A stretch of 64,000 nt of DNA from an uncultured Flavobacteriaceae bacterium (GTDB lineage: Bacteria > Bacteroidota > Bacteroidia > Flavobacteriales > Flavobacteriaceae): positions 1 through 64,000 of the forward strand of contig CAJWAA010000002.1 in assembly GCA_913020295.1 (NCBI GenBank), in the 5' to 3' direction. The notes beneath the pieces were generated by a model that did not search any database, had not been told where the DNA came from, and was given only the letters and a program-made list of their open reading frames with translations. Positions 25,430 to 44,968 of the stretch are shown one piece after another. A program made the translations under genes and the position numbers. Numbering within the stretch: position 1 is the stretch's first letter; each line of letters begins with the position of its first letter.

Positions 25430-27103
25430 TTAATTATCGGTGACACAACCTTCTGAGGCAGTGGACACAGTTTTTATATATTTGTGCAAAACCCCCATAG
25501 AAAACTTGTATGGAGGTTGTACCCAACTTTTTTTTCTATTCTCAATTTCTTTATCTGATAAATTCACACTCAAGGTGTTGGTTTCAGCATCAATAGTGAT
25601 GATGTCACCGTCTTTCAATAAACCAATTACTCCTCCCTCTTGAGCCTCTGGAACTATATGTCCTACTACAAAACCATGGGTTCCTCCTGAAAACCTTCCA
25701 TCAGTAATCAAAGCAACATCTTTCCCCAATCCAGCACCCATAATGGCAGCTGTTGGTTTTAACATTTCAGGCATTCCAGGACCACCTTTTGGGCCCTCGT
25801 AACGGATGACCACTACATCTCCTTTTTTAACTTTTCCGGCTCCTATTCCAGCGTTAGCATCGTATTCACCATCAAAAACTCTTGCAGGGCCAACAAACTT
25901 CAAACCCTCTTTTCCAGTTATCTTAGCTACTGACCCTAATGTTGCTAAATTTCCTTTAAGGATTCTGATATGTCCGGTGGGTTTGATCGGATTTTCAAGA
26001 GGTCTTAACAAGTCTTGTCCTGCTTTAAGGGGGGAAACTTCTGATAGATTTTCGGCCAAGGTTTTACCTGTTATTGTAATACAATCACCATGGAGCATCC
26101 CATTTCCAAGCATAAATTTTAATACAGCAGGGACTCCTCCAATAGCATGAAGGTCTTTCATCAAATATTTACCGCTTGGTTTGAGGTCGGCTAGAAAAGG
26201 AGTTGTATCACTAATCTTTTGGAAATCATCTATGGACAAGTCAATACCCGCAGCATGAGCGATGGCCAAAAAATGTAAAACAGCGTTGGTAGATCCTCCC
26301 AGTACAGATATCAGTCGTAAAGCGTTCTCAAGAGAATTTTTGGTAACTATCTCCAGTGGCTTTAGATCTGTTTGTATTAGTTTACTCATAGCTGAACCTA
26401 CAGCCTTGCAATCTTCTATTTTTTCTTGACTGACAGCCGGGTTTGATGAACTGTAGGGTAATGACATCCCCAAAGCTTCAATGGCGGAAGCCATAGTATT
26501 TGCAGTGTACATTCCTCCGCATGCTCCAGCCCCAGGGCACGCATTTCGAATTACCTTTTTATATTCGTTTTCATCTATTTTACCGGCTACTTTTTCTCCC
26601 CAAGCCTCAAAAGCAGAAACCACATCCAATTCTTTATCTCTGATACATCCCGAGGCAATAGTTCCTCCGTATACTAATATACTTGGACGGTTAAGTCGTA
26701 ACATCCCCATCAATGCACCTGGCATATTTTTGTCGCAGCCAACTACCGTGACAACTCCATCATATGACATGGCCTGAACGACTGTCTCAACTGAATCTGC
26801 AATAACATCTCTTGAGGGGAGAGAAAATCGCATACCGGGAGTCCCCATGGAAATTCCGTCACTCACGCCAATCGTATTGAAAATCAAACCCAACATTTGG
26901 TGGGGCGCAATACCTTCCTTGACATGAACTGAAAGCTCATTGAGGTGCATATTACACGGGTTACCCTCGTAACCTGTACTGGCAATACCTATCAACGGTT
27001 TTTCAAAGTCCTCATCTGTCATGCCAATGGCATGAAGCATGGCTTGGGCTGCAGGCTGAGTGGGATCTTGTGTTACACGTTGACTGAATTTATTAAGGGC
27101 CAT
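25430..27103 (-). CDS. ilvD: IlvD, dihydroxyacid dehydratase
   Basis: An Fe-S dehydratase of 557 residues making 2-oxoisovalerate and 2-oxo-3-methylvalerate. Cluster-ligand regions are visible: [21 protein letters not shown] and [19 protein letters not shown]. The C-terminal [16 protein letters not shown] is another hallmark. It is the first gene of the ilv operon. Its product 2-oxoisovalerate feeds LeuA and PanB, both encoded in this window. Confidence 0.97.
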
Positions 27104-32657: not shown

Positions 32658-34643
32658 TTAAAAAGCATAGCGATTGGGCTGTTTTGCTATTTGACGATGT
32701 AGCTCCAAACCAGATTGCAACCAGTCCCTGTAGGTTGCCGTATCGGTATATTGAATGGGAGGATTGAGTATAGTTGCGTCGGCGGTCATTAAAACATAAT
32801 AAGGCTGAGAGGCTGAGGAAAAATTTAAGCTCTGAAAAGTCGCCCACTTTTCCCCAAGGGTTTTGATAGTTTTGATCTTTCCGTTGGGATATTGAAAGTT
32901 AAATTTAAGTGCTTTTGGCAATTCTTTGCGGTCATCTATGTAGAGTGAAATAATAACAAACTCCTCGTTCAACAAACGGAATACCTCGGGTCGGGACCAC
33001 ACATTTTCTTCCATTTTTCTGCAGTTTACACAGGCCCAACCGGTAAAATCCAACAAGATAGGTTTGTCTTCTGCTTCGGCATAAGCCCTACCAGTTTCAT
33101 AATCCTTAAAGCACTTCAACCCCAGAGGACATTCTGAATCAGAGGGATAAACACTATAAAATACGGGAGGAGGAAATCCGCTTAATAGGGTTAGGCGTCC
33201 GTCTTGATTTTTTCCCAAACCAGGTATTAAATAGAAAATAAACATCAATACCAAAAAAGTAAAAAATCGTTGGCCTTTTGAAATTTTAGTTTCTTTTACA
33301 TCATAAGGAAAGCGCAACCATCCCATTAGGTACACAAATAATAAAATAGCTATCACTAACCATAAACCTACAAAAATCTCGCGCTTGAGTATCCCCCAAT
33401 TCCCTACCAAATCGGCATTGGACAAAAACTTTAAGGCTAATGCCAATTCCAAAAAGCCCAAGGTTACTTTAACCTTGGTCATCCATCCACCCGATTTGGG
33501 GATGGATTTGAGGGCGTTGGGAAAAAAGGCCAATAAGCCAAAAGGAAGTGCTAAGGCAAATCCAAAGCCGGCCATACCCATAGTCAGTTGGTCAGCTCCA
33601 CCCTCTACCGTTAGCGAACTGGCAAGTAATGAGCCCAATATGGGACCTGTACATGAGAAAGATACAATAGCCAATGTAAGTGCCATAAAAAAGATCCCCA
33701 ATACTCCACCACCGGCAGAGGCAGCATCAGAACGATTCCCCCAACTGCTAGGTAAGGTCAATTCGTAATAGCCAAAAAATGAAAAGGCAAAAAAGACAAA
33801 TACCGAAAAAAAGATCAAGTTCATTACTATATTGGTCGATAACGTATTTAATATTTGAGGATCGAGCTCATCCAAAAAGTGAAAGGGTAAACTCATCAAG
33901 ATATAGATCAACAGTATAAAAAACCCATAAATTAAGGCACGTCCCACCCCTTTGCTTTTGCTTAAACTCTGCTTAAGAAAAAAGGAAACCGTAAGGGGTA
34001 TCATTGGAAAAATACAAGGCGTAAGCAGCGCAATAAAGCCGCCTATAAAACCCAATAAAAATAAGTTTAGCAAATGGTTATCACTATTTTGACTTTGATT
34101 TAGGTTCAAAAATTGCCTATTTTTTAGTGGCAACTCCAATGCCTCTGATTTTTTTAAACTTTCCGGATCAACAGTTTTTTGTGTTTTTGAAATTGATTTG
34201 GAGGGATCCAAAACAAAGCGAAAGGGTTCACTTCTGAAAATACATATTTTATCGTCACAGGCTTGAAAATTGATCTCTCCAGAGACTGTCACAAGCTCGG
34301 GTTGTAGCAATCGGATTTTTTGCCGGAAAGTTGCCTCTCCCTCAAACCAAGATAAATCCATTTCAAAAATAGGATCGAAGGCCGTGACGGTTTTACTTTC
34401 TTCAGTTTTTCCAAGCAATTCTAAAGCAGTATCTAACCCTTCAAAGACAAACTCGGTAGGAAGAGGCCCGTCTTTGGGAAGGTTTTGCGAATACAAATGC
34501 CATTTGGGATGGACCGATGCTTTAAAAATTAGCAAGTATTCCATATCCGTAATCTTTTCTAAGTTGGTTGTCCAAACCACGGGTTCTTGTGCCTGGAGTC
34601 CCAGTGTCCAAAAAAATAATAGAAAAAAGCCTTTTTTAATCAT
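32658..34643 (-). CDS. dsbD: DsbD-like thiol:disulfide interchange protein
   Basis: A 661-residue inner-membrane protein that carries electrons from cytoplasmic thioredoxin to the periplasm. It has a signal peptide (MIKKGFFLLFFWTLGLQAQ), an N-terminal DsbD-alpha domain with Cys pair in QACDDKICIF, about eight membrane segments with ALLTPCIFPMIPLTVSFF and SCTGPILGSLL as the buried redox Cys regions, and a C-terminal thioredoxin domain with WACVNCRKMEE. Length exceeds the E. coli protein (about 565), mainly in the middle and tail (DDRKELPKALKFNFQYPNG). Its ATG overlaps the tilS stop by eight bases. Confidence 0.93.
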   Translation of the reverse strand: MIKKGFFLLFFWTLGLQAQEPVVWTTNLEKITDMEYLLIFKASVHPKWHLYSQNLPKDGPLPTEFVFEGLDTALELLGKTEESKTVTAFDPIFEMDLSWFEGEATFRQKIRLLQPELVTVSGEINFQACDDKICIFRSEPFRFVLDPSKSISKTQKTVDPESLKKSEALELPLKNRQFLNLNQSQNSDNHLLNLFLLGFIGGFIALLTPCIFPMIPLTVSFFLKQSLSKSKGVGRALIYGFFILLIYILMSLPFHFLDELDPQILNTLSTNIVMNLIFFSVFVFFAFSFFGYYELTLPSSWGNRSDAASAGGGVLGIFFMALTLAIVSFSCTGPILGSLLASSLTVEGGADQLTMGMAGFGFALALPFGLLAFFPNALKSIPKSGGWMTKVKVTLGFLELALALKFLSNADLVGNWGILKREIFVGLWLVIAILLFVYLMGWLRFPYDVKETKISKGQRFFTFLVLMFIFYLIPGLGKNQDGRLTLLSGFPPPVFYSVYPSDSECPLGLKCFKDYETGRAYAEAEDKPILLDFTGWACVNCRKMEENVWSRPEVFRLLNEEFVIISLYIDDRKELPKALKFNFQYPNGKIKTIKTLGEKWATFQSLNFSSASQPYYVLMTADATILNPPIQYTDTATYRDWLQSGLELHRQIAKQPNRYAF

Positions 34644-35943
34644 CGTAGCGAATTAACCATTTGTCTTTTGTGTTAGCATTGGCCAAGAAACGCTGATCAG
34701 CCCTTTCTCCTACCACCCAAACAATATCGTCTCCAGAGCAAAGCAACCACTGGGCTTCCTTTTCTAAAAGGGAATATTTCTCGTCTTTAAAATATTTACT
34801 CAATTTCTTACTTCCCTTCAAACCGTTAGGATAAAAATAATCACTTTGTTTCCATTTTCTCAGTATTAAAGGAAACTTTAACTTGGATTTGTCTAACATT
34901 AGGCTTTTAGAATCTACTTTTTTAAAGGTTTTTTCTTTGGTAAAAAAAAGCCTTAGGGGAGTATCAATAGTTGTCAATCCTGAGGCAATAGAATAGGATT
35001 CGGATGGAGATACTTCTATGGGGGTCAATAAAAAACACTCCCTATCTTTGATCAATCGGTGGGTGTTGGAAAAGAGTTGTTTTCCACTTTGTGAATGCAT
35101 CAACTGCTTGAGATCTGCCAAGTTCACAAAGCCGTAGGGGGCAAACAACGCATGCAGGTAATAATTCAATGAAGAAAGGCCTTTCAAAACATCGATTGAA
35201 ATTTTAAACCCTTGTTTTTGTGGGATAAAATTATTCATTTTAAAATCACTAATAACATCCTCCAAAACATTTTGAGCCTCGCCCAAATGTTTGAGTGTTT
35301 CTTGAAACTGCTGATCAAAATTGGGATTCTTTTTTTTCCATTGTGGAATCACCTCGTGCCGAAGTGCATTGCGCAGATACTCAGTTTTTGCATTGGACAG
35401 ATCTTCGCGCCATTGAATTTTATTTTCCAAAGCATATTGCATAATCTCCTCACGTGAAAAAAACAACATAGGGCGCAAGATTTTTCCTCTTTGCATGGGG
35501 ATACCCAATAAACCTTTAAGACCTGTGCCACGCATGACATTGATCATAAAGGTTTCCAAGGCATCATCGGTATGATGGGCAACCAAAATCAAATCGTAGT
35601 CATATTGATTGGATAAAGTGTCAAACCATCGGTAGCGCAACTGCCGCGCTGCCATCTGAATGGATACTTTTTTTTTAAGTGCATGAGCTTGCGTATCAAA
35701 GCTTTGAATATGACATTCCAAACTTTTTTTAAGGGCCAAATTTTTTATCCAATCAGCATCCTCTTTACTTGCTTGACCTCTTAATTGAAAATTACAATGG
35801 GCCAGGGCAGGCATGAGCCCCGATTTCAAACAAAGGTCCAACAAGACACAACTGTCTACGCCCCCACTGAATGACAAAAGTAATCTTTGACCCTTTAGGA
35901 CGAGGGGGTAATCTGACAAATACTTTTGGAACTTTATATGCAT
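34636..35943 (-). CDS. tilS: TilS, tRNA(Ile)-lysidine synthase
   Basis: A PP-loop ATPase that converts C34 of tRNA-Ile(CAU) to lysidine so that it reads AUA. The ATP motif LLSFSGGVDSCVLLDL is near residue 25, followed by AHCNFQLRGQASKEDADW, VAHHTDDALETFMINVMRGTGLKG and EDLSNAKTEYLRNALRHEV, the TilS signature. The C-terminal domain (LMLDKSKLKFPLILRKWK) is present. I used the ATG at 35943 (435 aa, MHIKFQKYL); an upstream in-frame start at 35967 adds eight residues without similarity. It is essential in most bacteria. dsbD follows with an overlap. Confidence 0.94.
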   Translation of the reverse strand: MHIKFQKYLSDYPLVLKGQRLLLSFSGGVDSCVLLDLCLKSGLMPALAHCNFQLRGQASKEDADWIKNLALKKSLECHIQSFDTQAHALKKKVSIQMAARQLRYRWFDTLSNQYDYDLILVAHHTDDALETFMINVMRGTGLKGLLGIPMQRGKILRPMLFFSREEIMQYALENKIQWREDLSNAKTEYLRNALRHEVIPQWKKKNPNFDQQFQETLKHLGEAQNVLEDVISDFKMNNFIPQKQGFKISIDVLKGLSSLNYYLHALFAPYGFVNLADLKQLMHSQSGKQLFSNTHRLIKDRECFLLTPIEVSPSESYSIASGLTTIDTPLRLFFTKEKTFKKVDSKSLMLDKSKLKFPLILRKWKQSDYFYPNGLKGSKKLSKYFKDEKYSLLEKEAQWLLCSGDDIVWVVGERADQRFLANANTKDKWLIRYDD

Positions 35944-36262
35944 ATACAAAATTAAGGATTTTGTCACAGCCCGTTTCCAAAAATTTCAAGTGAAAATATC
36001 TTTTGGAATGTGCATAGCAAACAAAAGTGATCTATGAATATTTTATAACGATTTTGCAAAAAAAAATAAAATTCGGATATTTGCGTTTCAAATGAAAGAT
36101 GCAACGACATATACCTTGGGAATCGCCTCAACTTACAGCCCGGTTCCACTTCGTTCACGCCGCCCCTAGCGGGTACATTTCTCTATTCGAGACTCAGGTG
36201 CGTCCAGTCTCATTTTCCAAAGATCATATCCTATTTTTTCAATTCAAAAATATTTGTCAATA
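35944..36262 (+). promoter_or_regulatory. Divergent tilS/arginine-operon region with a structured GC-rich leader
   Basis: A gap of 319 bases. The first 130 bases are AT-rich. From about 36105 to 36213 composition becomes distinctly GC-richer and self-complementary: GGAATCG (36119-36125) pairs with CGGTTCC (36141-36147, one G-T pair); CCGC (36160-36163) pairs with GCGG (36169-36172) around loop CCCTA; GAGACT (36189-36194) pairs with AGTCTC (36206-36211). The run GATATTTG around 36077-36083 is one base from TAnnTTTG, so transcription could begin near 36090 and give an untranslated leader of about 170 bases for the arginine operon. It matches no RNA family that I recognise. Confidence 0.4.
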
Positions 36263-36787
36263 ATGGAATTAATTATTGCCAACTCAAAACATATTATACA
36301 CGCTAAAGACATCAGTACATGTATCGGCGAATCAGCCAAAATGCGAGGTACCGGTATCGCCAGAAGGAGCCCGCAATATATCAGTAAAAAGATGGAAGCA
36401 GGCAATGCCGTGATTGCCTTGGAAAACGATCAATTCGCAGGATTTTGCTATATTGAAGTATGGGGACACGGCAATTACGTGGCCCACTCCGGTTTGATAG
36501 TCTCTCCTGATCATAGAGGAAAAGGATTGGCAAAACAAATCAAGAAAAGGGTATTCGATCTGTCTAAGGAAAAATTTCCTAATGCCAAAATCTTCGGGAT
36601 CACGACTGGAAAAGCCGTCATGAGGATTAATTATGAATTGGGCTATCAACCTGTCGTATTTTCAGAATTAACAGACGACCCCGAGTTTTGGAGAGGCTGT
36701 CAAACCTGTAAAAATTACGATGTATTGACCCGAACTGAAAGAACCATGTGCCTGTGCACAGGTATGTTATATGACCCAAGACAATAA
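36263..36787 (+). CDS. GNAT acyltransferase with four-Cys tail, probable glutamate N-acyltransferase of the arginine pathway
   Basis: A GNAT-fold protein of 174 residues. The acyl-CoA-binding loop VSPDHRGKGLAKQI is at about residues 80-92, followed by the KIFGITTGKAVMRINYELGYQPV segment. The first gene of an operon with all later arginine genes but no argA or argJ, it is the best candidate for glutamate N-acetylation (or N-succinylation). A C-terminal tail carries Cys146, Cys149, Cys163 and Cys165 (CxxC-x13-CxC), which could bind zinc or act in redox sensing. I used the ATG at 36263; a TTG three codons upstream is also in frame. The enzymatic role is inference from context. Confidence 0.82.
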   Translation: MELIIANSKHIIHAKDISTCIGESAKMRGTGIARRSPQYISKKMEAGNAVIALENDQFAGFCYIEVWGHGNYVAHSGLIVSPDHRGKGLAKQIKKRVFDLSKEKFPNAKIFGITTGKAVMRINYELGYQPVVFSELTDDPEFWRGCQTCKNYDVLTRTERTMCLCTGMLYDPRQ

Positions 36788-36808: not shown

Positions 36809-37999
36809 ATGGAAAATAAAAAATTAGTTTTGGCTTACAGCGGCGGTTTAGACACCTCATATTGCTTGATGAAACTTTCTCAAGAAGGTTATGAGGTTCA
36901 CGCCATAAGTGTCAATACTGGAGGATTTGATGCTATGGAAATGGAGGAAATGAAAACCAAAGCCCTGCAGATGGGAGCCCATACCTATCAATCCATTAAT
37001 GCACTAGACTCCTTTTACGAAAAGGTGGTCAAATATTTGGTATTCGGTAATGTTCTCAAAAACAATACCTACCCCCTATCGGTTAGTGCAGAGCGAATTG
37101 TTCAGGCCATGGAAATCGTAGCCTATGCCAATAAGATTAGTGCCAATGCCATTGCCCATGGAAGTACGGGAGCAGGAAACGATCAAGTGCGGTTTGATCT
37201 GATTTTTCAGGTCATGGCACCGGATATTGAAATCATCACCCCCATCAGAGACCAACAACTTTCCAGAGAAGCTGAAATCGCTTACCTCAAAGAAAATGGA
37301 GTAGTCTTGTCATGGGAAAAAGCACAGTACTCAATCAACCAAGGTTTATGGGGAACAAGTGTGGGCGGTAATGAAACCCTGACCTCCAACGATAGCCTTC
37401 CCGAATCGGCTTATCCAAGTCAAATGGAAAAACAACAGGCTCAAAAAGTCACCCTTCATTTTGAAAAAGGAGAATTGGTAGGAATTGATGAGAAGATGGA
37501 CAATCCTGTAAATAACATCATCAAATTACAAGATCAAGCTAAAAAATTTGGGATTGGCAGAGACATCCATGTGGGAGACACCATTATAGGTATCAAAGGC
37601 AGGGTCGGTTTTGAAGCTGCTGCCCCTCTATTGATCATTAAAGCCCATCACCTGCTTGAAAAACATACACTAAGCAAATGGCAACAATTTCAGAAAGAAC
37701 AATTGGGAAATTTTTATGGGATGCTGCTCCACGAAGGACAATATCTGGATCCGGTCATGCGGGACCTGGAGGCCTTTTTGAGCAACAGTCAAACAACGGT
37801 TAGCGGGAAGGTTTTCGTAACCCTGCACCCCTATCGATTTGAACTCAACGGTATTGAATCAGATCACGACCTGATGAATGCAGCTTTTGGTAGATATGGG
37901 GAAGAAAACAAGGGTTGGTCAGGTGATGACGCCAAGGGTTTTATTAAACTACTTTCCAACCAAAACAAAATATACCAATTCGTAAATAAAGAAAAATGA
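36809..37999 (+). CDS. argG: ArgG, argininosuccinate synthase
   Basis: A PP-loop ligase of 396 residues joining citrulline and aspartate with ATP. Seen: LVLAYSGGLDTSYCLMKLS (ATP-binding SGGLDTS), the aspartate/citrulline-binding stretch IAHGSTGAGNDQVRFD, and GRVGFEAAAPLLIIKAHHLLEKH with TLSKWQ. Length is near the usual 400. It follows the GNAT gene by 21 bases and overlaps argC by four bases (ATGA). Placing argG early in the operon, before argC, is typical of Flavobacteriaceae as far as I recall. Confidence 0.96.
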   Translation: MENKKLVLAYSGGLDTSYCLMKLSQEGYEVHAISVNTGGFDAMEMEEMKTKALQMGAHTYQSINALDSFYEKVVKYLVFGNVLKNNTYPLSVSAERIVQAMEIVAYANKISANAIAHGSTGAGNDQVRFDLIFQVMAPDIEIITPIRDQQLSREAEIAYLKENGVVLSWEKAQYSINQGLWGTSVGGNETLTSNDSLPESAYPSQMEKQQAQKVTLHFEKGELVGIDEKMDNPVNNIIKLQDQAKKFGIGRDIHVGDTIIGIKGRVGFEAAAPLLIIKAHHLLEKHTLSKWQQFQKEQLGNFYGMLLHEGQYLDPVMRDLEAFLSNSQTTVSGKVFVTLHPYRFELNGIESDHDLMNAAFGRYGEENKGWSGDDAKGFIKLLSNQNKIYQFVNKEK

Positions 38000-38955
38000 A
38001 AAAAGTAGGCATTATTGGGGGTTCAGGTTATACCGGAGGAGAATTGATCCGATTGGTATTACACCACCCCGCATTGGAATTGGATTTTGTGTACAGTACT
38101 AACAGACCAGGAACACCATTGCACGATACCCATTCAGATTTACTGGGCAGCGGAGGACCGGATTTTACAGCAACCATTAACCCAGATGTCGATGTGGTAT
38201 TCCTCTGTGTGGGACATGGTAAATCGGTTGGTTTTTTGGAAAAAAATCAATTTTCTAAAAATACCATCATTATTGACTTGAGTAACGATTTTAGATTGAA
38301 AAAAGATACCCAATTTCAGGACTATAATTTTGTATATGGATTGCCGGAATTTCAGCGGGAAAAGATTAAAAAAACCAATGCTATTGCCAATCCTGGTTGT
38401 TTTGCCACAGCGATTCAACTGGCTCTTTTGCCTATTGCTAAAGCACAAAGGATCCGGGAAGCAGTCCATATCAACGCCACTACAGGCAGCACAGGCGCGG
38501 GGGTGGGATTAAGTCCCACCGGACATTTCAGCTGGAGAAACAACAATATATCATGGTACAAACCCTTCACCCACCAACACTTGGGCGAAATCGGTGAAAC
38601 CTTAGGCAACCCAAAAATCTATTTCCTTCCTCAAAGAGGGAATTTTACGAGAGGGATTTTTGCCAGTTGCTACACCCCCTTTGATGGTAAGCTCAAAGAA
38701 GCGACTGAAATGTACAAAGAGTTCTATAAGAACCATCCTTTTACGCATGTATCGGACAATGAACTTACCCTAAAACAAATAGTAAATACCAATCATTGTG
38801 CCATACATTTACATCAATTTGAAGATCAATTACTGATCACATCGGTCATTGATAATTTGGTAAAAGGTGCCTCGGGTCAAGCCATTCAAAATTTGAACCT
38901 TATAATGGGATGGGAAGAAGATTTAGGTCTACTACTCAAAGCCAGTGTTTTTTAA
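37996..38955 (+). CDS. argC: ArgC, N-acyl-glutamyl-phosphate reductase
   Basis: An NADPH-dependent reductase of 319 residues producing N-acylglutamate semialdehyde. Seen: KVGIIGGSGYTGGELIRLVL (dinucleotide-binding loop), VFLCVGHGKSVGFL, IIDLSNDFRL, VYGLPEFQREKI and the catalytic IANPGCFATAIQLALLP with the nucleophilic Cys; HQHLGEI supplies a catalytic His region. Length matches the shorter ArgC type. The start overlaps the argG stop by four bases. Confidence 0.96.
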   Translation: MKKVGIIGGSGYTGGELIRLVLHHPALELDFVYSTNRPGTPLHDTHSDLLGSGGPDFTATINPDVDVVFLCVGHGKSVGFLEKNQFSKNTIIIDLSNDFRLKKDTQFQDYNFVYGLPEFQREKIKKTNAIANPGCFATAIQLALLPIAKAQRIREAVHINATTGSTGAGVGLSPTGHFSWRNNNISWYKPFTHQHLGEIGETLGNPKIYFLPQRGNFTRGIFASCYTPFDGKLKEATEMYKEFYKNHPFTHVSDNELTLKQIVNTNHCAIHLHQFEDQLLITSVIDNLVKGASGQAIQNLNLIMGWEEDLGLLLKASVF

Positions 38956-38973
38956 AAATTAAAAAGAATAAAA

Positions 38974-39768
38974 ATGAAAATAGCTATCATCGGATCAGGG
39001 AATTTAGGATTGAGTATTGCCAAAGGATTGGTTTACAACAATACCTACACCTCCCTTTATCTGACAAAAAGAGACCTCAGTCCCATCGAAAAATGGGAAG
39101 AATACAACAATGTCAAGATCACTACAGACAACAAAGAGGCTGTAAAAAATGCTGACATTATCATTTTTACAGTACAGCCCCGACAATTTGACGGCATCTT
39201 GGAGGAAATAAAGGATGTATTGACCGACAAACACGTTTTGATCTCGGCCATTACGGGCTACAGTATCCAGCGAATGGAAGAACAATTGGGAAGGAATTAT
39301 CCCATTGTACGAAGTATGCCAAATACTGCCATTTCAGTAGGAAAATCAATGACCTGCTTGTGTTGTAATAATACCGGTGAGAAGAGAATTGCTATTGCAG
39401 AAGCCATTTTCAATGGACTGGGAACCACCATCAAAATTTCCGAAAAACAAATGCAGGCAGCTACCGTAGTTTGTGCCAGTGGAATCGCTTTTTGGATGCG
39501 ACTCATCCGTGCAACTACCCAAGGAGGTGTCCAAATGGGTTTTGATGCCGATGAATCTATGCGCATGTCCATGTATACTGCTTTGGGAGCTGCCAGTCTG
39601 TTGATCGAAACCGACTCCCACCCAGAAACCGAAATCGATAAAGTCACCACTCCTCAAGGTTGCACCATTACGGGTTTGAACGAAATGGAACACCAAGGCT
39701 TAAGTTCTTCTCTAATCAAGGGTCTTGTGGCTTCTTTCGAAAAAATTAATGAAATTAAAATGCAATGA
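38974..39768 (+). CDS. proC: ProC, pyrroline-5-carboxylate reductase
   Basis: A 264-residue NAD(P)H reductase that makes proline from P5C. Seen: KIAIIGSGNLGLSIAKGL (Rossmann motif), VRSMPNTAISVGKSMTCL, and the C-terminal catalytic helix region QGGVQMGFDADESMRM with TPQGCTITGLNEMEHQGL, corresponding to the P5C-binding TPGG-type loop. It is embedded in the arginine operon between argC and argD, so proline and arginine synthesis are probably co-expressed. P5C could come from glutamate semialdehyde; proA and proB are not in the window. Confidence 0.93.
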   Translation: MKIAIIGSGNLGLSIAKGLVYNNTYTSLYLTKRDLSPIEKWEEYNNVKITTDNKEAVKNADIIIFTVQPRQFDGILEEIKDVLTDKHVLISAITGYSIQRMEEQLGRNYPIVRSMPNTAISVGKSMTCLCCNNTGEKRIAIAEAIFNGLGTTIKISEKQMQAATVVCASGIAFWMRLIRATTQGGVQMGFDADESMRMSMYTALGAASLLIETDSHPETEIDKVTTPQGCTITGLNEMEHQGLSSSLIKGLVASFEKINEIKMQ

Positions 39769-39793
39769 AACCTGTCAAAAGGGATTTAAACAT

Positions 39794-40915
39794 ATGAAAC
39801 TATTTGACGTATATCCGCTTTATGAAGTTTCCCCCACAAAGGCAAAGGATGTCTATGTTTATGATGAGGCGGGGACAGAATATTTGGACCTATACGGTGG
39901 TCATGCAGTCATTTCCATAGGACATAGCCACCCCCATTATGTCAGCCGATTACAAAAGCAATTGCAAAAAATTGCCTTTTATTCCAATGCCGTGGAAAAC
40001 CCTCTTCAACAAGAACTTGCAGATGAGATAGGGGAACAATCCTGTTTACACGAATATCAACTATTCTTGTGCAGTTCGGGCGCTGAAGCTAATGAAAACG
40101 CACTAAAGCTGGCCTCCTTTCAAAACGGTAAAAAAAGAGTGGTGGCCTTTAAAAATGCATTTCATGGCAGAACCTCAGCAGCCGTTGCCGCAACTGACAA
40201 TCTCAATATAAATGCACCCCTAAATCAGCAGCAAGAGGTTACATTTATTCCTTTTAATAATGTACAGGCATTGGAAAAAGAATTGCAAAAAGGAGATGTA
40301 TGCGCTGTAATTTTCGAACCTATTCAAGGTGTGGGCGGTCTCGATCAGCCTAAAGAAGATTTCGTATTAAAAATGGAACAATTGTGCTATCAATATGATA
40401 CTGCTCTTATCGCAGATGAAGTGCAATCGGGATTTTCCAGATCTGGGACCTTTTTTGCTTTTCAAAATAACAATATCAAACCCCATGTTATTACCATGGC
40501 TAAAGGAATGGGTAATGGTTTCCCCATTGGTGGGATTTTGGTCCACCCCGATATCAAACCAAAATACGGGATGTTGGGAACCACCTTCGGAGGGAATCAC
40601 CTGGCCTGTACTGCATCATTAGCGGTTTTAGAAGTCCTAAAAAAAGAGAAGCTTCAAAAACATGCTAAAGAAATGGAAGCTTATTTCAGAGACAGAGCAG
40701 AAAAAATAAAAGGAGTGAAAATCAAAGGCAGAGGGCTCATGCTTGGACTGGAATTTGACTTTGAAGTAGGACCCTTGAGAAAAAGGCTTATATATGAAAA
40801 ACATATATTTACAGGAGGTAGCAGCAATAAAAAAGTTTTAAGAATCCTACCACCTTTGACTGTACAAAAAGTACATTTTGATCAACTTTTTGATGCATTA
40901 GAAGATTTATTATGA
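39794..40915 (+). CDS. argD: ArgD, acylornithine aminotransferase
   Basis: A PLP-dependent class III aminotransferase of 373 residues. Seen: DLYGGHAVISIGHSHPHYV, LCSSGAEANENALKLA (PLP phosphate site), AFKNAFHGRTSAAVAATD, the VIFEPIQGVGG segment, LIADEVQSGFSRSG (PLP Asp) and TMAKGMGNGFPIGG with the Schiff-base Lys. I chose the ATG at 39794 (MKLFDVYPLYEVSP); an upstream start at 39725 inside proC is in frame but not plausible. It ends overlapping argF' by four bases. In the linear pathway it transaminates N-acylglutamate semialdehyde. Confidence 0.95.
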   Translation: MKLFDVYPLYEVSPTKAKDVYVYDEAGTEYLDLYGGHAVISIGHSHPHYVSRLQKQLQKIAFYSNAVENPLQQELADEIGEQSCLHEYQLFLCSSGAEANENALKLASFQNGKKRVVAFKNAFHGRTSAAVAATDNLNINAPLNQQQEVTFIPFNNVQALEKELQKGDVCAVIFEPIQGVGGLDQPKEDFVLKMEQLCYQYDTALIADEVQSGFSRSGTFFAFQNNNIKPHVITMAKGMGNGFPIGGILVHPDIKPKYGMLGTTFGGNHLACTASLAVLEVLKKEKLQKHAKEMEAYFRDRAEKIKGVKIKGRGLMLGLEFDFEVGPLRKRLIYEKHIFTGGSSNKKVLRILPPLTVQKVHFDQLFDALEDLL

Positions 40916-41859
40916 AGCATTTTATCACCTTAGCGGATTTACCCAATTTTGAACAGACCCTTGATTTGGCAATGGATTTAAAAAAGAATCCCAAACAATC
41001 CAATGGTTTGGGCAAAGGCAAAACCTTGGGCATGTTGTTCTTTAACCCCAGTTTAAGAACACGACTTAGCACGCAAAAAGCAGCGCAAAACTTGGGACTC
41101 CCCACCATGGTCATGAATTTTAGTCAAGAATCATGGGCCTTGGAATTTGAAGATGGCACTAAAATGAGTGGATTGAGATCTGAACATGTAAAGGAAGCCG
41201 CTAATGTGGTTTCCCAATACTGTGACATGGTTGCCATAAGGGCTTTTGCTTCCTTGTCAGATAAAGAAAAAGACGAGGCTGAGATTGTATTAAGAAGCTT
41301 TACAAAATACGCATCGATTCCCATCATCAATATGGAAAGTGCTACTGCACACCCCTTGCAAGCTCTAGCAGATGCCATCACAATTGAGGAATTTAAACCC
41401 AACCACAAACCTAAAGTAGTATTGAGCTGGGCTCCTCATCCCAAAGCCCTTCCCCACGCGGTTGGGAATTCTTTTACCCAAATGATGAAAAATATGGCTG
41501 CTGATTTCGTTATTGCACATCCGGAAGGCTATTCCCTGAATCCAAAAATTACTGAAGGGATAGAATGCACCACCGACCAAGAAAAAGCCTTGGAAGATGC
41601 TGACTTTGTATATACCAAAAACTGGTGCTCCTATGATTATTATGGACAAATCCTCAGAACAGATGATCAATGGATGATCACACCCGAAAAAATGCAACTG
41701 ACCAACAGTGGAAAATTTATGCATTGCCTACCCATCAGAAGGAATATTGTTGCAGCCGATGGGGTTTTGGACAGTCCAAATTCATTGGTCATTCAACAAT
41801 CCCAAAACAGGATCTATTCTGCACAAGCCGTATTAAAGCAACTATTGGAAAATGGATAA
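40912..41859 (+). CDS. argF: ArgF', N-acetyl- or N-succinyl-ornithine carbamoyltransferase
   Basis: A transcarbamylase of 315 residues. FFNPSLRTRLSTQKAAQNLG contains the carbamoyl-phosphate loop; SLRTR in place of STRTS is the mark of acyl-ornithine rather than ornithine carbamoyltransferases. FMHCLPIRRNIVAADGV and the ATAHPLQALADAITI block also fit. The loop that sets acyl-group preference reads SGLRSEHVKEA, with Ser90 at the position where, as I recall, Bacteroides succinyl enzymes have Pro and Xanthomonas acetyl enzymes have Glu. Acyl specificity is therefore open. It overlaps argD by four bases and argB by eight. Confidence 0.9.
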   Translation: MKHFITLADLPNFEQTLDLAMDLKKNPKQSNGLGKGKTLGMLFFNPSLRTRLSTQKAAQNLGLPTMVMNFSQESWALEFEDGTKMSGLRSEHVKEAANVVSQYCDMVAIRAFASLSDKEKDEAEIVLRSFTKYASIPIINMESATAHPLQALADAITIEEFKPNHKPKVVLSWAPHPKALPHAVGNSFTQMMKNMAADFVIAHPEGYSLNPKITEGIECTTDQEKALEDADFVYTKNWCSYDYYGQILRTDDQWMITPEKMQLTNSGKFMHCLPIRRNIVAADGVLDSPNSLVIQQSQNRIYSAQAVLKQLLENG

Positions 41860-42634
41860 ACTGGCGGTGATCAAAATAGGGGGGAATGTAATAGAAGATG
41901 CAGATATACTGCAATCCTTTTTGACAGACTTTGCCCAAATCCAAAGCACCAAAATTTTGGTTCATGGAGGGGGCAAAAAAGCGACAGCCATGGCTAATCA
42001 AATGGGGATACCTGTCCAAATGGTTGAGGGCAGAAGGATCACCGATACAAAGAACCTCGACATCATCACCATGCTATATGGCGGCAAAATCAACAAGAAT
42101 ATCGTAGCCCAATTACAAAATTTAGGATGCAATGCGCTGGGACTATCCGGGGCTGATGGTAATGCCATTCAGGCGGTTAAGAGACCTGTAAAAACAATCG
42201 ACTATGGTTATGTGGGGGATGTCGTAGGTGTAAATACCGAATTATTTCAAATATTACTCAAAACCGGATATACCCCTGTTTGTTGCGCCATTACACACAA
42301 CCAAAAAGGACAACTCCTTAATACCAATGCCGATACTATTGCCGCCACCTTGGCCCAGAGTTTATCGCAATATTTTGAAGTATTTTTGGGGTATTGTTTT
42401 GAAAAGCAAGGTGTTTTGGAAAATATCGATAACGACAGCAGTGTGATTGAAACAATCACCCCCAAAAAATATAAGAGTTTAAAAGCAGAGCAAGTAATTC
42501 ACTCGGGCATGATCCCAAAGATCGACAACTGCTTTAACGCACTAAAAAATGGTGTTTCATCGGTTAAAATTGGAGCACCAAAAATGATAGCGGGAATTAC
42601 CCCATACACATCTTTAAAATTAAAAGATGAATAA
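41852..42634 (+). CDS. argB: ArgB, N-acylglutamate kinase
   Basis: An amino-acid-kinase-fold protein of 260 residues that phosphorylates N-acylglutamate. Seen: LAVIKIGGNVIEDADIL, KILVHGGGKKATAMANQMGI (nucleotide and substrate glycine loops), GRRITDTKNLDIITMLYGGKINKN, and LLNTNADTIAATLAQSL. The C-terminal IHSGMIPKIDNCFNALKNGVSSVKI is typical. It lacks the N-terminal helix that mediates arginine feedback in hexameric kinases, so it may be feedback-insensitive; this is inference. The gene overlaps both neighbours by eight bases. Confidence 0.95.
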   Translation: MDKLAVIKIGGNVIEDADILQSFLTDFAQIQSTKILVHGGGKKATAMANQMGIPVQMVEGRRITDTKNLDIITMLYGGKINKNIVAQLQNLGCNALGLSGADGNAIQAVKRPVKTIDYGYVGDVVGVNTELFQILLKTGYTPVCCAITHNQKGQLLNTNADTIAATLAQSLSQYFEVFLGYCFEKQGVLENIDNDSSVIETITPKKYKSLKAEQVIHSGMIPKIDNCFNALKNGVSSVKIGAPKMIAGITPYTSLKLKDE

Positions 42635-43682
42635 GCTAACTTCAGCAGCAATTGATTTATTGAGGGATTTGATCTCTATCCCCTCTTTTTCGCAAGAAGA
42701 AAACAAAACCGCTGACAGAATTGGAGAATGGTTTGACCAATATGGTATTTCTTATCAGAGGGTCGGTAACAATATTTGGGCGCGAAACGAAGCTTATGAC
42801 CCAAAAAAACCAACCCTTTTACTCAATTCTCACCACGATACTGTTCAGCCCAACTCGGCTTATACCAATGATCCATTTGAACCCAAAATCGAGGATGGAA
42901 AGCTTTACGGTTTGGGCAGTAACGATGCGGGAGGGGCTTTGGTTTCTTTGATTGCTTTGTTTACCCACTACTATGCTTTCAAAAATCCAAAGTATAATTT
43001 GCTGATGGTAGCCAGTGCGGAGGAAGAAATTGCAGGAAACCAAAGTTTGAGAGGGCTTTTGACTAAACTGCCTAAAATCGATGTAGCCATAGTAGGAGAA
43101 CCCACCGAAATGCATTTGGCAGTAGCCGAAAAAGGATTACTTGTTTTTGATGTTGTCATCAGAGGTACCCCCGGTCATGCAGCCCATCCCAACGATGACA
43201 ATCCCATTATGAAACTTCCCAAAGTATTAGAATGGTTTCAAAACTTTTCGTTGGAAAAACAGTCCAAGTTTTTGGGGGATGTCAAAATTACCGTCACTCA
43301 AGTGAATGCGGGAAAAGAACACAATGTGGTTCCCGCTAGTGTTCATCTTGTGGTAGATGTAAGGGTCAACGACCAATACAGCAATCAAGAATTGGCACAA
43401 ATACTCATAGAATCTGCCCCTTGCGAAATGACTCCACGATCTCTGTACCTCAATTCCTCCTCCATTGGAATGGAGCACGAATTGGTTCAAGCGGGAATAG
43501 CCTTGGGAAGAAAAACTTATGGTTCCCCTACCCTATCCGATCAGGCGGCATTGAAATGTCCTTCTCTAAAATTGGGTCCAGGACTGTCAACAAGGTCGCA
43601 TTCGGCTAATGAATTTATCTTTGTTCATGAAATCGAAGAGGCGGTAAAAATTTATATTGAACTCTTGGGAAAAATACTTTAA
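42627..43682 (+). CDS. argE: ArgE, M20-family acyl-ornithine/acyl-citrulline deacylase
   Basis: A zinc metallopeptidase-family deacylase of 351 residues. Metal and catalytic motifs seen: LLLNSHHDTVQPNSAY (His ligand), GLGSNDAGGALVSL (bridging Asp), MVASAEEEIAGNQSL (catalytic Glu and ligand) and AIVGEPTEMHLAVAEKG. A dimerisation domain begins near residue 175 (VVIRGTPGHAAHP). In a pathway with ArgF' the physiological substrate should be N-acyl-citrulline, giving citrulline for ArgG. The ATG overlaps argB by eight bases. Confidence 0.92.
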   Translation: MNKLTSAAIDLLRDLISIPSFSQEENKTADRIGEWFDQYGISYQRVGNNIWARNEAYDPKKPTLLLNSHHDTVQPNSAYTNDPFEPKIEDGKLYGLGSNDAGGALVSLIALFTHYYAFKNPKYNLLMVASAEEEIAGNQSLRGLLTKLPKIDVAIVGEPTEMHLAVAEKGLLVFDVVIRGTPGHAAHPNDDNPIMKLPKVLEWFQNFSLEKQSKFLGDVKITVTQVNAGKEHNVVPASVHLVVDVRVNDQYSNQELAQILIESAPCEMTPRSLYLNSSSIGMEHELVQAGIALGRKTYGSPTLSDQAALKCPSLKLGPGLSTRSHSANEFIFVHEIEEAVKIYIELLGKIL

Positions 43683-43684
43683 CG

Positions 43685-44968
43685 ATGAAAATCTGGCAAA
43701 AAAATCAAGTCCTAGACGAAAAAATAGACCATTTTACAGTGGGCAAAGATCGGGAGTATGATCTATACCTGGCAGCATATGACTGCCAAGCCTCCATTGC
43801 TCATGCACAAATGTTGGCCAAAACTGGAGTGTTGACAGTGGAGGAGGCTGATCAACTTATCGGAGTATTAAAGGATTTAAAAAGTAAGGCCGATAAAGGA
43901 AATTTTATCATCGAAGCTGAATTTGAGGACATACATTCTAAAATCGAATATGTATTGATTCAAAAACTTGGCGATTTGGGAAAAAAAATACATACCGCCA
44001 GATCTCGAAACGATCAGGTGTTGGTTGCTCTTCATTTGTATCTCAAGGAAGAGATTAAAACTATTAAAGGGTTAACCCTCAATTTTTTTAATTTATTAAT
44101 GGATCTGGCCGATCAACATAAGGATCATTTTTTACCGGGTTATACCCATTTTCAAGTGGCCATGCCCTCCTCATTTGGACTTTGGTTTTCGGCTTATGCC
44201 GAAAGTCTGATCGATGATGTGATCTTACTCAATGCTGCCCATCAAATTGTGGATCAAAACCCATTGGGCAGTGCTGCAGGGTTTGGAAGTTCCTTTCCGA
44301 TTGACAGGAGAGCCACTACCGAAAGTTTAAACTTTTCCGATTTAAAATATAATGTGATTGCAGCTCAGATGAGCAGGGGTAAGGCCGAAAAGACAACCGC
44401 TACTGCTATTGCTGCTTTGGCAGCTACCCTTTCCAAAATGTCAATGGATATCTGTCTCTACATGGGACAGGAACACAATTTTATCAGTTTTCCGGAAGAG
44501 TTGACCACAGGTTCAAGTATCATGCCGCACAAGAAAAACCCCGACGTTTTTGAACTAATCCGTGGGAAATGTAACCTGCTTCAGGGACTGCCTAATCAAT
44601 TGGCTTTGCTGATGACCAATTTGCCTTCTGGTTACCACCGAGAGATGCAGCTCGCTAAAGGGCCGGTCATCGAAGCTATCAATGAACTAAAATCTTGTTT
44701 GGATCTTTTTGTTTTCACTCTCCAGAAGATAAGCGTTAAAGAAAATATTTTGGATGACCCAAAATATCAGTATGTTTTTAGTGTCGACACCTTAAACGAA
44801 TGGGTAAAGCAGGGAATACCTTTTAGAGATGCCTATAAAAAGATGGGAAATGACATCGCAAAGCAGAAGTACATACCCAAAAAAACATTGGATCATACTC
44901 ATCTAGGAAGCTTGGGGAATTTAGCACTCCAAGAAATTGATCTGAAAATGAAAAAGGCAATGGGATAA
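43685..44968 (+). CDS. argH: ArgH, argininosuccinate lyase
   Basis: A fumarase/aspartase-superfamily lyase of 427 residues that splits argininosuccinate to arginine and fumarate. Seen: DREYDLYLAAYDCQASIAHA, EDIHSKIEYVLIQKLG, KIHTARSRNDQVLVALHLYL, GYTHFQVAMPSSFGLW and the signature GSSIMPHKKNPDVFE with the mobile catalytic-Ser loop. Length is slightly below the usual 450-460. It closes the operon two bases after argE. No clear hairpin terminator follows; a 12-base palindrome TGAGTTAACTCA at 45005-45016 lies in the convergent gap. Confidence 0.95.
   Translation: MKIWQKNQVLDEKIDHFTVGKDREYDLYLAAYDCQASIAHAQMLAKTGVLTVEEADQLIGVLKDLKSKADKGNFIIEAEFEDIHSKIEYVLIQKLGDLGKKIHTARSRNDQVLVALHLYLKEEIKTIKGLTLNFFNLLMDLADQHKDHFLPGYTHFQVAMPSSFGLWFSAYAESLIDDVILLNAAHQIVDQNPLGSAAGFGSSFPIDRRATTESLNFSDLKYNVIAAQMSRGKAEKTTATAIAALAATLSKMSMDICLYMGQEHNFISFPEELTTGSSIMPHKKNPDVFELIRGKCNLLQGLPNQLALLMTNLPSGYHREMQLAKGPVIEAINELKSCLDLFVFTLQKISVKENILDDPKYQYVFSVDTLNEWVKQGIPFRDAYKKMGNDIAKQKYIPKKTLDHTHLGSLGNLALQEIDLKMKKAMG

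Follow-up and report, generated by a model that had tools for sequence, protein, structure and literature searches.

The arginine operon and the DNA in front of it

The window, meaning the whole stretch of 64,000 nucleotides that was analysed, carries a set of arginine genes on the plus strand. The first gene encodes a GNAT acetyltransferase of 174 amino acids (36263-36787), for which no NCBIfam model scores above cut-off and which could be the N-acylglutamate synthase of the arginine pathway. It is followed at 36809-43682 by argG, argC, proC, argD, an N-acylornithine carbamoyltransferase gene, argB and an argE-like deacylase gene, all assigned with NCBIfam; argC, proC, argB and the carbamoyltransferase exceed their own cut-offs, and for argG, argD and the argE-like gene the names are those of the best matches, which lie below cut-off. 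A further plus-strand frame at about 43685-44968 appears argH-like, by eye only. According to these gene calls the operon makes arginine, the amino acid that the leader would sense. The presence of proC (pyrroline-5-carboxylate reductase, 38974-39768) within an arginine operon is an observation in its own right.

On the 5' side lies a minus-strand open reading frame (ORF) at 34636-35967, presumably a tilS-like gene. Between it and the GNAT gene is a leader of about 180 bases, which holds the stretch singled out in the preliminary description of this DNA. We predict a Bacteroidota-type promoter on the plus strand at 36053-36083, consisting of TTTG (36053-36056), 19 nt and GATATTTG (36076-36083), the last of which differs at its first base from TAnnTTTG, the flavobacterial -7 consensus given in the parts of PMC9723704 covered here. 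Near relatives (L313-L319 and L321) have a similar promoter stretch. Only 37 of 139 loci were found to carry the strict form of TAnnTTTG followed by a start in frame. An ATG at 36092 stands 8 nt behind the end of the -7 box (36083). If transcription starts at the place usual for promoters of this kind, the transcript would begin nearly at the ATG, with hardly any untranslated RNA on its 5' side.

The preliminary description was drawn to this region by its composition. The GC content of 36100-36199 is indeed high (53%, as compared with 26% in 36000-36099 and 27% in 36200-36299), but other 100-base windows reach 50-52%, so that the value is not extreme. The GC-rich stretch is mainly an ORF of 25 codons (36092-36169, plus strand), the key feature of the leader and one that had been missed. 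It reads MKDATTYTLGIASTYSPVPLRSRRP up to its stop and has the arginine codons CGT, CGC and CGC near its end; we attribute the high GC of the leader to such CGY codons together with the arms of hairpins.

Three hairpins in series had also been proposed, and their inverted repeats are present where they were reported (GGAATCG at 36119 with CGGTTCC at 36141, CCGC at 36160 with GCGG at 36169, and GAGACT at 36189 with AGTCTC at 36206). The second and third, here called H1 and H2, are conserved, but the first is not: in an alignment of the window with 10 relatives only 67.5% of its cells are paired, as against 100% for H1 and H2, and we rejected it as a conserved element because it is largely broken in the relatives. 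The leader on its own folds no better than shuffled sequences (z = 0.31, with equal or greater stability in 123 of 200 shuffles), and the support for structure therefore comes from conservation and not from energy. The statement that no known riboswitch class is recognisable also holds. At the gathering threshold Rfam has no match at the leader and yields only a tRNA in the whole window; at a permissive threshold the matches are at chance level, the best reaching 20.3 bits, as against the 40 to 60 needed for the four families listed.

Leader ORF and hairpins in the family

The GNAT gene was sought in 249 genomes of the same family and was present in 168, the nearest titled records being Flavobacteriaceae; upstream DNA was examined for 150 of these loci (30 + 120), the other 18 being left out. 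A comparison among relatives had been suggested as a check on the structured leader, and it reveals both conservation and covariation.

An ORF with at least 3 arginines among its last 12 codons, a definition that makes no use of the pattern described below, is found in 140 of the 150 upstream regions, while dinucleotide shuffles give a mean of 8.65 and a maximum of 15. Codons for the end product are thus clustered in a short ORF between promoter and first gene. Of the 144 loci with a recognised H2, 138 have an arginine codon directly followed by a proline codon (CGN CCN) at a distance of 31-37 nt from the H2 loop, on its 5' side, and one further locus has the pair at 43 nt; five loci are without the pattern, four of which keep Arg-Arg and a frame at that place. 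The Arg-Pro dipeptide is no evidence by itself, since the search pattern demands it. Independent evidence comes from the nine preceding codons, which contain on average 2.90 arginines (138 loci), as compared with 0.68 in shuffles and with 0.49 and 0.18 in the other two frames of the same stretch. These 400 arginine codons comprise 222 CGT and 148 CGC, that is 370 CGY, whereas CGY accounts for 30 of 138 arginine codons in 11 genes of the window used for comparison. Outside the Arg-Pro pair, the residue kept most often is the arginine just ahead of it (126/138), and the best residue other than arginine or proline in the last 22 codons is a phenylalanine kept in 48 of 138. The stop follows the proline directly in 120 of 139 loci and comes 1-9 codons later in the other 19. 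In the window and the seven near relatives L313-L319 the first seven codons (36092-36112) encode MKDATTY, and L321 begins with MTDATTY; the middle of the ORF varies among these leaders. Codon sensing offers no explanation for the conservation of MKDATTY.

H1 (CCGC/GCGG, 36160-36172) spans the stop of the leader, with the last arginine codon inside its 5' arm. Its commonest form among relatives is CGCCC-GUAA-GGGUG, and it hardly covaries because it is nearly invariant in the family. The pairing is supported by a GGG that stays constant after the stop (94-99% per base in 138 rows) and by the replacement of both arms at once (CGCAC/GTGCG) in L082, L086 and L089, three of the loci without the Arg-Pro pattern, which have no proline. 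The fold strength of H1 is not exceptional, the observed median being reached by 24% of shuffles. A U-rich spacer (36176-36188) separates H1 from H2. It is 56% T across 136 loci and of restricted length, with 12-13 nt in 107 of the 136 and 10-15 nt in all of them. A spacer of about 12 nt would fit the geometry of a hairpin-stabilised pause of RNA polymerase.

H2 (36189-36211) has the form GAGACU, a CA bulge, GG, the loop UGCGU, CC and AGUCUC, and across the family its apex is GG-UGNGU-CC with a bulged A. A search for motif and stem together recognised it in 144 of 150 loci of the family. Because such a search favours paired stems, we added a search for the motif alone; with the stem ignored, 134 of the 150 loci have the exact motif GGTGNGTCC within their last 140 nt, and its flanks form 5.86 of 6 possible pairs, as against 4.90 +/- 0.05 when arms are swapped between loci and 3.36 at arbitrary positions. 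Covariation was measured on 44 distinct H2 sequences with a one-base bulge. In these, 96.3% of cells are paired (79.7% when shuffled), 62 cells are changed on both sides (16.4 in shuffles), and the covariation score is 0.499, compared with 0.191 in shuffles and at most 0.131 in slid controls. The loop is TGAGT in 98, TGTGT in 28 and TGCGT in 12 of the 144 loci, the bulged A before GG is kept in 93% of 138 rows, and eight fixed positions are conserved at 96-100% of these rows, values partly favoured by how H2 was sought. No further runs of covarying pairs were seen among the 40 best column pairs.

Two familiar roles for these structures were considered. H2 as an intrinsic terminator was rejected, as just 1 of 138 loci passes the terminator rule. 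An antiterminator formed by the spacer and the 5' arm of H2 looked plausible by eye (UUUC/GGAA) and gained no support from the swap control, with a pairing value of 7.63 against 7.35 +/- 0.18 for swapped arms (19 of 300 as high).

Distribution within and beyond the family

Of the six family loci without a recognised H2, L140 has both leader and H2 at a place further upstream, L111 carries an H2 that is degenerate, L071 and L185 have arginine-containing frames and no clear H2, and L120 and L139 possess the GNAT gene with no recognisable leader within 320 nt. A second set comprised 80 titled loci from the GTDB contig collection (Zobellia, Maribacter, Muricauda, Robiginitalea and many Flavobacteriaceae MAGs), some of which overlap with the first set, on which the rules were made. 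A strict joint rule was satisfied by 67 of these 80 loci, and the 786,453 nt of background taken from them gave no match. Of the 13 loci that fail, two are truncated at a contig end, and the other 11, inspected by eye, have a similar leader in which H2 or the frame deviates. As a side observation, the GNAT homologue of L014 has one in-frame TAG inside it.

In the genome from which the window derives (91% complete), the model R1 has one strong match, the leader itself (E = 1.1e-11), followed by a next best match at E = 1.4. Among 296 genomes drawn from the order 32 have a match at E <= 0.01. Family members account for 22 of them, all with E values of 5.4e-6 or better, and the remaining 10 have values of 9.9e-5 or weaker. 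Thirteen weak matches inspected by eye (5 in the own genome, 8 in the order) include none with a leader plus H2. The own genome has four copies of the pattern AGGTGNGTCC, as compared with 8 and 3 for two control patterns, with 6 of 6 stem pairs in the arginine copy and 3 of 6 in the other three copies. On these results the idea that H2 is a module shared with other operons was rejected.

Conservation before the arginine operon in the family and the one strong match in its own genome support the proposal of a cis-acting element linked to arginine. Sensing would, on this evidence, depend on the translation of a leader peptide with arginine codons, and not on an RNA to which arginine or an intermediate binds. 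The alternative of a small RNA is not favoured, because both the frame and the spacing are conserved in front of one and the same gene.

At the level of the class, 99 of the 295 genomes searched have the GNAT gene, and 63 loci were analysed, 60 from other families and three from genus g127 of the same family; the window, L190, L191 and L199 (which have the standard element), L196, L197 and L217 (short upstream DNA) and 29 genomes were left out. An ORF with at least 3 arginines in its last 12 codons is present in 40 of the 63 loci, as against a shuffled mean of 4.1 and maximum of 9. Hairpins spanning the stop were assessed in the 46 of 63 loci with an ATG frame holding 2 or more arginines, where the group mean is 9.1 compared with 6.6 in shuffles and 0 of 100 shuffles are as high; this is modest evidence for such hairpins in other families, because at a single locus 43% of shuffles, on average, reach the observed value. 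By eye, several loci of other families have a second hairpin with a CC-UNNGY-GG apex. The three g127 loci (L193, L201 and L203) lack the H1/H2 element and share another upstream frame, which starts with MNK.SLHITSLSR and has CGG arginine codons. A second arginine-containing ORF lies upstream of the usual leader in L190, L191 and L199, about 230-305 nt before the GNAT gene (for example MHTSNKTNQISLRRRRPMRRR, then ...SVRRFFPRP), and these are possibly tandem leaders.

Probable attenuation by a leader peptide, and the alternatives

Arginine codons end a conserved frame before arginine genes, and leader-peptide control is therefore the natural reading. We consider it most likely that the leader is a ribosome-mediated attenuator that senses charged tRNA-Arg. 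The ORF, its codon choice, its conservation, the covariation of H2, the placement of H1 and the spacing are what can be read from the DNA; the start of transcription, translation, stalling and the direction of the response we infer from them. Transcription would begin just before or at the ATG, judging from the -7 box, and a ribosome would translate a leader of 25-30 codons whose end is rich in CGU and CGC. When arginine is short, the ribosome would stall at the last arginine codons and cover H1. When it is plentiful, the ribosome would terminate at the stop and depart, and H1 would re-form beside a constitutive H2; H1, the U-rich spacer of restricted length and H2 would then reduce expression of the operon, with RNA polymerase paused or released, or the leader exposed to Rho or another factor. 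The OFF step may be termination at H1, pausing with Rho, or a factor that reads H2.

Folding of 136 leaders fits such a division of roles. H1 forms with a probability of 0.75 without a ribosome and 0.89 with a ribosome six codons upstream, and H2 with 0.55-0.70 in all five ribosome states, which suggests that H1 is the structure touched by a ribosome at the end of the leader and H2 its constitutive partner. The zero probability of H1 with a ribosome on the last codons or the stop is no independent evidence, because it is set by the constraint. One finding speaks against simple occlusion: 105 of 138 loci, the window not among them, have a second arginine codon 5-8 codons before the last, and with a ribosome halted at that point H1 could still form (P = 0.89 at six codons).

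How the OFF step might work is where the explanations divide. H1 could itself be a short intrinsic terminator, with 5 bp, a tetraloop and a U-rich tail, that is covered by the ribosome stalled at arginine codons, leaving H2 an accessory part. The location of the last arginine codon within an H1 arm and the T-rich spacer behind H1 agree with this, and by a loose rule a terminator-like site is found at the H1 position in 56 of 138 loci, or in 59 when two more upstream bases are included. The same counts leave 79-82 of the 138 without one, no terminator-like site was found in the window's own leader, and the conservation of H2 would go unexplained; we regard termination at H1 as possible and doubtful. 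In another explanation, one we think rather unlikely as it stands, H2 is the site of a binding protein or of direct contact with RNA polymerase that sets the operon OFF or ON, and the leader peptide supplies the input of tRNA charging. This would account for a loop and closing pairs that are near-invariant while the stem covaries, for the retained bulged A, for the recovery of the exact motif when the stem is ignored and for an H2 that has no terminator tail, but a rigid pause hairpin could equally keep the loop. A bolder reading, which we hold possible but less likely than not, is an arginine attenuator of the Bacteroidota that combines a near-leaderless peptide with CGY codons, H1, and at a fixed distance the apical motif of H2, for which CC-UNNGY-GG stands, by eye, in several other families. 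RNA polymerase or a protein would read this motif, and H2 would not act as an intrinsic terminator.

Explanations that change the sensor fare worse. Arrest peptides, for which TnaC and SpeFL are the models, would have the nascent peptide and free arginine as a ligand stall the ribosome at RRP-stop. The constant arginine before Arg-Pro, beside the stop, and the retention of MKDATTY in near relatives would suit this. Conservation of the peptide beyond the sensed residues was not found across the family, though, where upstream residues are poorly kept; the position of the stop varies, three loci keep an H1-like stem with no proline, and the codon CCC is also required for H1. We therefore consider a free-arginine arrest peptide improbable. 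A riboswitch or protein operator in which translation has no role would be in keeping with a structured, covarying RNA before a biosynthetic operon. We hold it very improbable, as it leaves unaccounted for the enrichment of arginine codons in a single frame with its CGY bias and the excess of arginine-rich ORFs over shuffles, and Rfam has no match.

Leader-peptide control is best known from other phyla. In enterobacterial trp and his leaders a short ORF behind the promoter carries codons for the end product, a hairpin lies at the stop codon and a second hairpin follows downstream. The arginine leader has the same layout, a short product-codon ORF behind a promoter, a hairpin around the stop and a second one downstream. 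It differs from them in an H2 without the U-run of a terminator (1/138), in an antiterminator pairing that is not supported, in arginine as the amino acid, and in an ORF that, in the window, starts almost at the predicted 5' end of the RNA. A leader element before an amino-acid operon of Bacteroidota is also familiar as Bacteroid-trp RNA (RF01692). Its covariance model had no match in the window or in the 60 class genomes searched, and among 14 controls it matched in Bacteroides only; we rejected identity of the arginine leader with Bacteroid-trp.

The closest studied precedent that we found is orf34 of the Salmonella speF leader, for which the parts of PMC6386406 covered here describe arginine codons in an upstream ORF, a response to arginine in reporters, a hairpin downstream of the stop that forms depending on ribosome position, and control of ornithine decarboxylase via mRNA decay, translation and Rho termination. 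The sensing codons of orf34, AGG CGG, are positions 12-13 of 34 in the same account (PMC6386406). Arginine codons in the ORF and a hairpin past the stop are common to both; the target is a different one. Within the family, the covered parts of a study of F. psychrophilum (PMC9723704) report, in general terms, strong hints that leader peptides attenuate amino-acid operons from upstream positions, the same proposed class of mechanism as that of the arginine leader. The parts of its main text covered here contain no arginine element or H1/H2 structure and mention 'arginine' once, in relation to cyanophycin; an arginine leader may be listed in its supplement. As far as they are covered here, a B. 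thetaiotaomicron map describes short ORFs reminiscent of leader peptides and does not mention arginine (PMC7366714), and the text of a structured-RNA survey of 26 genomes includes no Bacteroidetes or Flavobacteria (PMC8632094). Our searches of the open-access literature brought up no account of an arginine leader from Bacteroidota, subscription papers and supplements being outside that scope.

The class of mechanism is already known, and what appears new is the amino acid, the codon restriction, H2 and the missing terminator. The element is kept across a large family, many of whose members are marine, and draws mainly on one codon box (CGY). Arginine synthesis is probably regulated through it, in organisms whose mRNAs have no Shine-Dalgarno sequences according to the covered parts of PMC9723704. 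The output step becomes a concrete question because the H2 loop is near-invariant, yet H2 is not a terminator. If the bolder reading above is true, the output step of this leader-peptide switch would be a new one, and the switch itself would be ancient enough to occur in many families.

Leaders of other amino-acid genes in the same family were also inspected. The window contains ilvD (25436-27049, minus strand), and no branched-chain leader peptide is evident before it or before ilvD at other loci (23 listed of 29). The his leaders, a precedent within the family, resemble the arginine leader in having a product-codon ORF and differ from it by a terminator-like site. In front of hisG (L219-L243), the ORF richest in histidine carries 3 or more histidines among its final 15 residues at 23 of the 25 loci. 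A terminator-like site occurs in all 25 within the 250 nt scanned, a longer stretch than for the arginine leaders. In the window's own genome (L227, G000:C14) the hisG leader, MKIFNHNIHFFQPIK, lies some 220-270 nt ahead of the HisG match, with a terminator-like hairpin behind it; many other hisG leaders contain HHH or HHHH.
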